From an uncultured Alphaproteobacteria bacterium (lineage in GTDB: Bacteria; Pseudomonadota; Alphaproteobacteria; HIMB59; GCA-002718135), in assembly GCA_902593125.1 (NCBI GenBank), contig CACJGU010000010.1:1-40713 (forward strand): a stretch of DNA of 40,713 nucleotides. The letters run 5' to 3'. The notes beneath the pieces are model-generated. The model saw only the letters and a list, made by a program, of their open reading frames with translations. It was not told where the DNA came from and searched no databases. Position numbers and translations under genes: made by a program. Position 1 is the stretch's first letter; every line of letters begins with the position of its first letter. Shown one piece after another: positions 12,588 to 14,691 of the stretch.

Positions 12588-12728
12588 ATTATATATTATC
12601 AAAATTAGACATTAAATATTAGAAAAAATTACCGAATTTCTGGCATTTTTTAAATATGCAATTTTTGCATACTAGTTTTTACGATTCAAATCTTAATAAA
12701 AATTAATATTAATCTATATGAATAAATA

Positions 12729-12777
12729 CGTTCATCATTCTTTGAATGACGGAAGTAGGCGAAAGCTGAAGGAACGC
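12729..12777 (+). ncRNA. glnA RNA (glutamine riboswitch), first aptamer of a tandem pair
   Basis: The sequence folds as the three-way junction of the glnA RNA class. P1 is CGTTC (12729-12733) with GAACG (12772-12776). P2 is TCATTC with GAATGA (12735-12749). P3 is a short GGC/GCT stem capped by GAAA. The conserved core GACGGAAGTAGG and GAAGGAACGC are both present and are the hallmark of the class. The class binds L-glutamine and controls nitrogen genes, mainly known from cyanobacteria and marine metagenomes. Bases 12588-12728, between the preceding gene and this aptamer, show nothing else I can name. Confidence 0.88.
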
Positions 12778-12794
12778 ATGCAAAGTTATAAAAT

Positions 12795-12844
12795 CGTTCA
12801 ACTTGTTTGTTCAAGTCGGAAGTAAGGTTATCCTGAAGGAACGC
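12795..12844 (+). ncRNA. glnA RNA (glutamine riboswitch), second aptamer
   Basis: This is a second copy of the same fold, 17 bases after the first. P1 is CGTTC (12795-12799) with GAACG (12839-12843). P2 is ACTTG with CAAGT (12801-12816). P3 is AGG/CCT with a TTAT loop. The core reads TCGGAAGTAAGG and TGAAGGAACGCG. P2 and P3 differ in sequence from copy 1 but keep pairing, which is compensatory change and supports a real RNA. Tandem glnA RNAs are known in the class. The pair lies 93 bases before the amtB start. Confidence 0.87.
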
Positions 12845-12887
12845 GGATCTTATTAATTAATTTCCATAGCTACGCATGAAAAGTAAC

Positions 12888-12910
12888 ACATGACTCGTTG
12901 TGAGACATGT
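12888..12910 (+). promoter_or_regulatory. Hairpin between riboswitch and amtB, possible expression platform
   Basis: ACATG (12888-12892) pairs with CATGT (12906-12910), and CTC with GAG inside, around a GTTGT loop. It lies between the second aptamer and the GGAGG ribosome site at 12928-12932. No U-run follows, so it is not an obvious intrinsic terminator. Control of translation start is the simpler guess. Confidence 0.4.
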
Positions 12911-12936
12911 ACTGTGAAATTTATAATGGAGGATTA

Positions 12937-14223
12937 ATGTTTAAAAAATCTATATATTTCATTAGCATTATAACTGTCTTCATACTCTTTAGCTCATATG
13001 CAAGAGCAGAGGTAGATGGTGAAGTGCAATACATTTTAAATACATTCTTATTTCTTGTATCTGGATTCTTAGTCATGTGGATGGCAGCAGGATTTGCAAT
13101 GCTTGAATCAGGACTTGTTACATCAAAAAGTGTAGCAACGATAGCCGCAAAGAATATTGGTTTATATTCAATTGCTGGAATAATGTTTTGGTTAGTTGGA
13201 TACAATATGGCTTACGGTATACCTGCAGGTGGTTTTATTGGATCTCCAATTCCATGGAGTGATGGTAGTGCTGTCGATACAGGTTATTCTGATGGTTCTG
13301 ATTGGTTCTTTCAGATGGTATTTTGTGCAACAACATGTTCAATTGTATCTGGAACACTAGCTGAAAGAATAAAAATTTGGCCTTTCTTCATATTTTGTGC
13401 ATTGTTAACTGGTTTTATATATCCAATTGAAATGGGTTGGCAGTGGGGTGGAGGATATCTAGCAGAAGCTGGCTTCTCTGATTTTGCTGGATCAACTCTT
13501 GTACACAGCGCAGGTGCAGCAGCAGCATTAGCTGGTGCAATTCTTTTAGGGCCTAGATTAGGGAGATTTAACGACAGTGGTGAAGCAGCTCCTATGGCGC
13601 CATTTGCTAATTCATCTATTCCATTAGCTACTCTTGGAGTATTTATTTTATGGCTTGGATGGTTTGGGTTTAATGGCGGATCACAATTAGCAATGGGTAC
13701 CTTTGATGATGTTACAGCAGTAGCAACAATTTATATTAATACTAATTTAGCAGCTGGTGCAGGTGTAATGGCATGTGCAGCAATTTCAAGGTTAGTAACA
13801 GGTAAAACAGATGTTGTAATGATGCTAAACGGTGCATTAGGTGGTCTGGTAGCAATAACTGCAGAGCCTTTGGCTCCATCACCTATACTCGCTATAATTA
13901 TTGGTGCAGTAGGAGGACTAATTGTTTTCTATGGTACTAGATTATTAATTAGTCTAAAGATTGATGACGTTGTTGGCGCAATTCCTGTCCATGGTTTTGC
14001 AGGAATTTTTGGAACATTAGTAGTTCCAATTTCTAATAGTGCTGCAAGTTTCGGAGCTCAACTTTATGGTGTAATAGCAATCAATATTTTCGTTTTTGTT
14101 GTATCATTTATTATTTGGTACATCATGAAGATGCTTTTTGGTATTAGAATTAGCGAAGAAGCTGAAAAACTTGGAACAGATAAATCTGAAGTAGGTGTAA
14201 TGGCCTACAGTATTCGAGACTAA
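12937..14223 (+). CDS. amtB: Ammonium transporter Amt
   Basis: Amt proteins are trimeric inner-membrane channels that import ammonium. From the ATG at 12937 the protein is 428 residues. A signal peptide ends at about residue 24 (SSYARA), then about 11 membrane helices follow. The two pore histidines sit in STLVHSAGAAAAL and PVHGFAGIFG. GWQWGGGYL and LGWFGFNGGS are family boxes. An upstream ATG at 12907 lies inside the hairpin; I prefer 12937 because GGAGG at 12928-12932 precedes it and the signal peptide begins there (MFKKSIYF). The tandem glutamine riboswitch in the leader implies control by cellular glutamine. No glnK/glnB gene is adjacent. Confidence 0.96.
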   Translation: MFKKSIYFISIITVFILFSSYARAEVDGEVQYILNTFLFLVSGFLVMWMAAGFAMLESGLVTSKSVATIAAKNIGLYSIAGIMFWLVGYNMAYGIPAGGFIGSPIPWSDGSAVDTGYSDGSDWFFQMVFCATTCSIVSGTLAERIKIWPFFIFCALLTGFIYPIEMGWQWGGGYLAEAGFSDFAGSTLVHSAGAAAALAGAILLGPRLGRFNDSGEAAPMAPFANSSIPLATLGVFILWLGWFGFNGGSQLAMGTFDDVTAVATIYINTNLAAGAGVMACAAISRLVTGKTDVVMMLNGALGGLVAITAEPLAPSPILAIIIGAVGGLIVFYGTRLLISLKIDDVVGAIPVHGFAGIFGTLVVPISNSAASFGAQLYGVIAINIFVFVVSFIIWYIMKMLFGIRISEEAEKLGTDKSEVGVMAYSIRD

Positions 14224-14310: not shown

Positions 14311-14691
14311 ATGACTGAAAATGAAATAGTAAGAGAAAAAAAAAGAAATATATATTCAAGTTTTTTTTCAGATAATTATTCATACAAATTTTTTTTTAAA
14401 TCAATTTTACATCATGTCATCTCACTTGAAGTTTATGAAAATAATGATCGTGATGGCATCTCCTTTGAAACTATTTGTTCTAATGTACCTAAATCAATTG
14501 GTTCAAGATCGTCAATTCAGTCAATTTTGAATGAAGCCCTTTACCAAAATCTTTTTAAAAAATACCAAAGTAAAAAAGATAAAAGAATAAAAAACTATTT
14601 TTTAGTAAATGAATTTGCAATTATGATGAATGATTGGCTAAAAAAAGAACATTCTTTTTTTACTAAATCAAATGGAATTGAGAAAAACTAA
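14311..14691 (+). CDS. Putative MarR-like winged-helix transcriptional regulator
   Basis: The 126-residue protein is not confidently assigned to a named family. Its central part looks like a winged helix-turn-helix: a recognition-helix-like segment SIGSRSSIQSILNEALYQNL at about 69-88, then a basic wing SKKDKRIKNYFLV (94-106). The wing echoes the D-x-R-x-K-x-x-x-L wing of MarR-type regulators. The N-terminus (FSDNYSYKFFFKSILHH) could form a dimerisation helix. It lies downstream of amtB, separated by two hairpins, which suggests but does not show a role in nitrogen response. It is Lys-rich, as AT-rich genes often are. Confidence 0.55.
   Translation: MTENEIVREKKRNIYSSFFSDNYSYKFFFKSILHHVISLEVYENNDRDGISFETICSNVPKSIGSRSSIQSILNEALYQNLFKKYQSKKDKRIKNYFLVNEFAIMMNDWLKKEHSFFTKSNGIEKN

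Follow-up and report, generated by a model that had tools for sequence, protein, structure and literature searches.

The locus

The window, by which we mean the whole stretch of DNA analysed (40,713 nucleotides), harbors an ammonium transporter gene, amt, at positions 12937 to 14223 of the + strand. The encoded protein is of the marine subtype, matching PF00909 at 324 bits and the NCBIfam marine-subtype model TIGR03644 at 572 bits against a cut-off of 514. Its likely start is at 12937, behind a Shine-Dalgarno sequence, AUGGAGG, at 12926 to 12932; the open reading frame lister places the start at 12907. On the 3' side of amt lies a 126-aa open reading frame (14311 to 14691) that has no Pfam or NCBIfam match, and into which DNA similarity to other amt loci extends. 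A promoter scan gave 5 sites, none of them usable and fewer than the mean of 11.1 in shuffled sequence.

A preliminary description, made from the sequence alone, had read the amt leader as two full glnA-class aptamers controlling an ammonium transporter in a marine alphaproteobacterium, and had proposed a search with the glnA covariance model. This reading holds for the aptamers and the target, and the proposed host fits. The glutamine riboswitch model RF01739 matches twice on the + strand under cmscan, at 12727 to 12780 and 12793 to 12847, each time at 61.8 bits (E 2e-11; gathering threshold 35 bits) and across the whole model (1-53 of 53), and no further Rfam family matches the window above its gathering threshold. 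The P1 stem is CGTTC/GAACG in both aptamers, as first described, at 12729-12733/12772-12776 and at 12795-12799/12839-12843. In the RF01739 alignments, the P1/P2/P3 junction with the CGGAAGUA and GAAGGAACG-C core is present, and P2 and P3 differ in sequence between the two copies with pairing kept, again as had been noticed. The spacing needs correcting from 17 bases, since 18 nt separate the two P1 stems and 12 nt the Rfam matches.

The C that follows P1 is found at 12777 in aptamer 1 and at 12844 in aptamer 2. The former, the equivalent of C60, is also the first base of the 18-nt linker (12777 to 12794), which contains the 5' strand of a putative helix, here called P0, as CAUGC (12777-12781) and AGUUAU (12784-12789). 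The proposed 3' strand lies beyond aptamer 2 at 12866 to 12878, as AUAGCU (12866-12871) and GCAUG (12874-12878). Between aptamer 2 and this strand is a variable, weakly supported GGA...UCC hairpin (12845 to 12865), which has its three pairs present in 26, 29 and 25 of 29 alignment rows and by eye takes a GGAU/AUCC form at some ATP-grasp sites. A further hairpin, at 12888 to 12910, separates the tandem from the ribosome-binding site and is a candidate expression platform. The whole leader folds no better than shuffled sequence (z 0.99), and so the case for the element rests on the covariance model and on conservation, not on stability. The element is a true, conserved tandem glutamine riboswitch of known class, and the window's copy is predicted to bind L-glutamine.

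A nitrogen regulon

The genome to which the window belongs (1.26 Mb, 69% complete) carries seven RF01739 matches, which make up three tandems and one single aptamer. The tandems precede amt in the window, glnA, and a circularly permuted (CP) ATP-grasp gene; the single aptamer precedes a second amt gene, amt-2, which is divergent from a GlnT-like glutamine synthetase (GS). The PII gene glnB is found directly upstream of the riboswitch-controlled glnA. The window tandem is part of a nitrogen regulon that encompasses glnA, amt and the ATP-grasp gene, together with the single aptamer at amt-2.

RF01739 occurs in 106 of 110 genomes of the family, counted with Infernal's stricter filters, and 89 of these 106 have an even number of matches, from 2 to 8. 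Loci were also picked by score rather than by tandem pattern (L001-L037); three of the 37 were unreadable by the pattern and were left out, and the other 34 represent 31 distinct sites, of which 29 are tandem and 2 are single, both single ones lying before amt-2.

Some loci have features of their own. Two consecutive amt genes, spaced by about 2 kb and each behind a separate tandem, are found at L048, L075, L085, L091, L097 and L135, and the downstream hairpin is unlike between the copies. ATP-grasp leaders (L002 at 1554-1745, L017, L015 and others) contain an open reading frame of 16 to 22 codons at 29 of 29 sites, with 25 distinct peptides. It lies between the riboswitch and the main gene, and at all 29 sites its stop codon overlaps or adjoins the main start. 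By eye, the Shine-Dalgarno sequence of this small frame sits in a hairpin loop, suggesting translational coupling. One locus labelled Chloroflexi RS659 (L110) shares 97.2% identity with the window across 8000 bases; its label therefore looks wrong and probably reflects a mislabelled bin.

Three tandem architectures

A scan for the tandem pattern picked up at least 118 stretches from genome contigs and a further 62 from viral ones, and at least 178 distinct tandems could be read from the gathered loci. They fall into three architectures. Class A, with at least 114 tandems, has a linker of 17 to 18 nt and precedes glnA, amt or the ATP-grasp gene; its records are mostly labelled uncultured Alphaproteobacteria, with two SAR116 records among them. 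Class B has a linker of 9 to 11 nt and is found before small open reading frames in viral contigs and some bacterial contigs. Class C, with a linker of 22 to 25 nt, comes from SAR86 and other gammaproteobacterial records, is sometimes triple, and precedes either a GS that by eye is of the GlnII type or a porin-like gene followed by Amt. Triple aptamers of this sort, before a small porin-like gene and then an Amt gene, occur in the SAR86-type loci L046 and L098.

The class B tandems (L156-L217, for example L157, L169 and L183) come mostly from marine viral contigs. Reading frames of 27 to 65 codons lie downstream at 51 of 53 sites, the other two being cut. At 50 of the 53, a stem that starts from the base after P1, the C60 equivalent, closes over the Shine-Dalgarno sequence, and it occurs in compensatory forms (CACCU/GGGUG, CAUCU/AGAUG, CACUC/GAGUG and CAAUC/GAUUG). 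The class A tail differs from that of class B. In another alphaproteobacterial family, f10 (L220, L221 and L222), a single aptamer precedes the same kind of ATP-grasp gene, and by eye a CUCUUUC a short way past the aptamer can pair with the Shine-Dalgarno sequence (GAAAGAG or similar).

Complementarity of linker and tail

In class A, the linker sequence CAUGC..AGUUAU is complementary to AUAGCU..GCAUG or AUAACU..GCAUG on the 3' side of aptamer 2, so that linker and tail would form a helix, P0, around that aptamer. The two strands could be read in 113 of the class A tandems, one cut by a contig end being left out. These represent 23 linker/tail sequence combinations in which both strands are nearly invariant. 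Across the 113 sites, 1230 of 1243 cells are paired; all 11 pairs form at 105 sites, and one or two are broken at the other eight. By operon, all 11 pairs are found at 29 of 29 ATP-grasp sites, 41 of 44 amt sites, 34 of 39 glnA sites and the 1 unassigned site. In a 29-row alignment of amt and ATP-grasp leaders (MAFFT displaces the glnA rows, which were therefore excluded), 99.4% of the 319 P0 cells are paired, compared with 10-31% when the strands are slid. Unconstrained folding of the window gives the P0 pairs probabilities of 0.80-0.92.

A covariance model built from the 29 rows (R1) matches the window at 12777 to 12881 with 116 bits, the window sequence being in its seed, and found glnA sites, which are absent from its seed, at 56-86 bits. 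In a class-wide draw R1 matched 5 of 289 genomes, namely the window's own genome, one of its genus and three of family f10; the f10 matches are single aptamers that lack the P0 strands.

In the 29-row alignment no P0 pair has changed on both sides, and the columns still pair at 99.1% after shuffling; the helix rests, then, on the complementarity of nearly invariant sequence. The same near-invariance would be expected if linker and tail were kept by binding of a protein or small RNA, or had been copied recently between operons, without forming a helix. We consider this account to be on the doubtful side. All 11 pairs form at 105 of 113 sites; the internal loops, by eye, change in length on both strands between operon types (3x3 at glnA, 2x2 at amt and 1x2 at ATP-grasp); and P2, P3 and the downstream hairpins have diverged while linker and tail have not.

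If P0 is indeed a helix, then its placement matters, since it begins at the C after aptamer 1 P1. In structural work on this class, C60 pairs with G23 on ligand binding, G23-C60 being described as the linchpin (PMC11477058; PMC5393176). With P0 starting at this very base, aptamer 1 may have to compete with P0 for it when binding its ligand.

Tandem glutamine riboswitches have been termed pseudo-cooperative, meaning independently acting, in a survey that lists 157 doublets and 4 triplets (PMC9481103), and the window could likewise hold two independent riboswitches, each with an expression platform of its own. This seems improbable here. Linkers of 17 to 18 nt (class A) or 9 to 11 nt (class B) leave no room for a terminator or ribosome-binding site, and neither element could be read between the aptamers of class A. 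The class A linker is nearly invariant, and judging by its sequence the P0 strand and a short A-rich stretch fill it, with no sign of a separate platform for each aptamer. As the linker is too short to hold a platform, the tandem looks instead like two aptamers that share one, a dual-aptamer arrangement. That a double copy would give a sharper response is plausible, and the general idea has already been published.

Expression platform and direction of control

The separate hairpin that had been noticed before the amt ribosome-binding site is confirmed, with its core at 12888 to 12910, and covaries in relatives. In 13 amt leaders, 88% of 117 cells are paired, four of nine pairs have changed on both sides, and the covariation score beats all 500 shuffles. 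The misplaced L126 row was left out of this alignment (A5), and the L024 row seems to be about one base out of register, so that these counts would be too low. The 47 bases from 12879 to 12925 fold at -7.7 kcal/mol, no better than shuffles (z -0.44).

Constrained folding of the window revealed no switch from one fold to another, Shine-Dalgarno pairing staying at 0.55-0.56 under every constraint. An alternative fold, in which the tail pairs with the downstream hairpin, was significant (p<0.05) in only 3 of 75 leaders; it is strongest before amt, at a mean of -9.1 kcal/mol against -10.3 for the linker pairing. A terminator search on the 3' side of P0 was positive at 22 of 23 glnA, 21 of 27 amt and 22 of 23 ATP-grasp sites, as it was for 56-70% of shuffles, and so does not discriminate. 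The tail sequence UUUCCAU, which by eye can form 7 bp with AUGGAGG before amt, was considered as an anti-Shine-Dalgarno element and dropped, since the ATP-grasp and glnA sites lack an AUGGAGG Shine-Dalgarno sequence.

We infer that the switch is OFF, such that glutamine would lower amt expression. The glutamine riboswitches tested so far act in the opposite direction, activating on glutamine according to a 2018 review (PMC6316151), and an ON switch, in which glutamine raises amt as in the cyanobacterial gifB and downstream-peptide switches, has this precedent in its favor. The class B stem over the Shine-Dalgarno sequence, starting at the C60 base at 50 of 53 sites, points the same way, as binding could free the ribosome-binding site. 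However, it is established that cells normally require amt and glnA at low glutamine, and the tail of the class A leaders is unlike that of class B. We therefore regard an ON switch as unlikely and keep OFF as the preferred direction.

Glutamine sensing where GlnD was not found

Nitrogen sufficiency is classically signalled by glutamine, for which the uridylyltransferase GlnD is the textbook sensor. A search with PF08335 found GlnD in 46 of 162 genomes of the order, all of them in a sister family, f2, and in none of the 110 genomes of the window's family. In the sister family GlnD is found in 46 of 52 genomes (42 strong matches and 4 weak only) and RF01739 in 0 of 52. Among genomes at least 90% complete, GlnD is found in 0 of 10 in the window's family and 10 of 10 in the sister family, and the riboswitch in 9 of 10 and 0 of 10, respectively.

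The preliminary description had suggested that the riboswitch may stand in for PII/Ntr control, no glnK being adjacent, and indeed no GlnK was found before amt. Complete loss of PII from the family is nevertheless rejected, as 81 of 110 genomes have one PF00543 protein each. PF00158 proteins, one each, are found in 82 of 110; the one example read is NtrX-like with an adjoining NtrY-like kinase, its best model, NF051870, being below cut-off. Sigma-54 (RpoN) was found in 0 of 20 genomes of the window's family, 0 of 2 of f2 and 2 of 3 of f10, and GlnE in 0 of 20, 1 of 2 and 0 of 3, respectively. With PII and NtrX-like proteins present, and with GlnD, GlnE and sigma-54 not found, the suggestion is best narrowed: since PII is kept and GlnD was not found, the riboswitch probably replaces GlnD-type glutamine sensing.

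The sister family shows what a protein-based arrangement looks like. One member (G139, a single contig of 1,410,127 bases), which we take to be HIMB59, has GlnD, no riboswitch, and two PII genes, one preceding amtB and the other preceding glnA. Of the 81 PII proteins found in the window's family, 19 were read, and all 19 have a different loop in place of the T-loop sequence LYRGAEY of both G139 proteins. In the Tyr51 column, 17 of the 19 have Tyr and 2 have Phe, the window's genome among the latter, and loss of the uridylylation tyrosine as a general rule is accordingly rejected.

Further afield, GlnD was sought in the 20 genomes behind other tandems, whose completeness is unstated. It was found in 0 of 10 with class C, 5 of 5 SAR86/gammaproteobacterial genomes with class B, 1 of 2 from SAR116, 1 of 1 from Cellvibrionales and 0 of 2 from AG-337-I02 and RS659. 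One GlnD-bearing SAR86 genome (G460) has no glnA or PII within the 180 kb searched. The contrast in GlnD amounts to one family pair and one gammaproteobacterial split, and hence to few independent events.

The association may, alternatively, be a coincidence of genome streamlining, in which GlnD disappeared along with much other gene content and the riboswitch spread on its own, not as a substitute. SAR11 IIIa/LD12 lacks glnD as well (PMC10030771), and GlnE and sigma-54 are likewise not found in the window's family. Nor is the link strict: four family genomes (G004, G046, G104 and G109) have neither riboswitch nor GlnD, and both occur together in f10, where 3 of 3 genomes have GlnD alongside a single glutamine riboswitch, and in one SAR116 genome (G448), which has a class A tandem before amt. 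Of the four, G109 (family f1, genus g6; 93% complete) also lacks a PII match, and an NtrX-like PF00158 protein is present. Against coincidence, the sister family, whose genomes are of similar size, has kept GlnD and lacks the riboswitch; the association of riboswitch with absence of GlnD recurs among SAR86-type genomes; and in the window's family a tandem before amt takes the place of the PII-amtB pair seen in G139. We see coincidence as a lesser possibility, though one to be taken seriously, and infer replacement. The distribution suggests that, in the window's family, glutamine sensing passed to RNA from GlnD, which was not found there.

Relation to known systems

Tandem glnA RNAs, with Amt, GS and PII genes among the targets, were reported by Weinberg in 2010 (PMC2864571), and the link between tandem glutamine riboswitches and ammonium transporters is already published (PMC2864571, PMC9481103), as is a phage glutamine riboswitch (PMC9004378). 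The 2018 review describes the class as restricted to cyanobacteria, with GS and Amt associations only in uncultured environmental sequence, and states that cyanobacteria, known users of the class, also lack homologs of known glutamine-sensing enzymes (PMC6316151). The present lineage and architecture are not described in the literature examined, and the association with absence of GlnD goes beyond the published tandems. In the open-licence PMC literature, no paper was found that links glutamine riboswitches to loss of GlnD outside cyanobacteria.

The window element resembles other Glutamine-I (RF01739) RNAs in its two full-model matches, its nitrogen-assimilation targets and its tandem occurrence. 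It differs in its host, an alphaproteobacterial family rather than cyanobacteria, in the linker/tail complementarity that extends beyond the 53-nt model, and in its likely OFF direction. The tandem glycine riboswitch (see also PMC9481103) likewise has two like aptamers, seemingly one platform and a conserved linker; it has another ligand and another fold, whereas the linker in the window is complementary to sequence after aptamer 2. The downstream-peptide, or glutamine-II, RNA (RF01704) shares the ligand and a related core, and the class B viral tandems also precede small reading frames; RF01704 itself has no match in the window at its gathering threshold. Finally, GlnD-PII sensing would likewise report cell glutamine to amt and glnA. 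In contrast to the RNA, it is a protein cascade that acts on PII, and its sensor was not found in any of the 110 genomes of the window's family.

Proposed mechanism and significance

From the computed aptamers, the complementary and conserved linker and tail, the regulon and the failure to find GlnD, we propose with moderate confidence that a single glutamine-I riboswitch of two aptamers lowers amt expression when glutamine is plentiful, as part of a nitrogen regulon in which RNA probably replaced GlnD sensing. When glutamine is plentiful, both aptamers would bind it, and on binding the C that follows P1 (C60) would be drawn into pairing with J2/3. The signal would then pass via P0, through which the aptamers may be coupled, and via the hairpin before the ribosome-binding site, such that amt expression falls. 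The same leader before glnA and the ATP-grasp operon, and the single aptamer at amt-2, would bring these genes into one nitrogen regulon. In this alphaproteobacterial family, RNA would probably have taken over the glutamine sensing of the lost GlnD.

A wider version can be put forward only tentatively, and may well not hold. In it, tandems on GS and Amt genes replaced GlnD in two separate lineages of streamlined marine proteobacteria, the window's AG-337-I02 family and SAR86-type gammaproteobacteria, as apparently happened in cyanobacteria, and the alphaproteobacterial tandem is a genuine dual-aptamer switch coupled by P0, with C60 of aptamer 1 contested between ligand and P0.

To our knowledge, glycine is the earlier amino acid riboswitch with two aptamers on one platform; if the aptamers here share one platform through P0, this would be the second of that design. 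The family is a large marine one, 102 genomes having been searched in the window's genus alone, and it provides identifiable hosts for riboswitch associations with GS and Amt that had hitherto been tied to uncultured environmental sequence. It also allows the idea that an RNA sensor took the place of a protein one to be put to the test.
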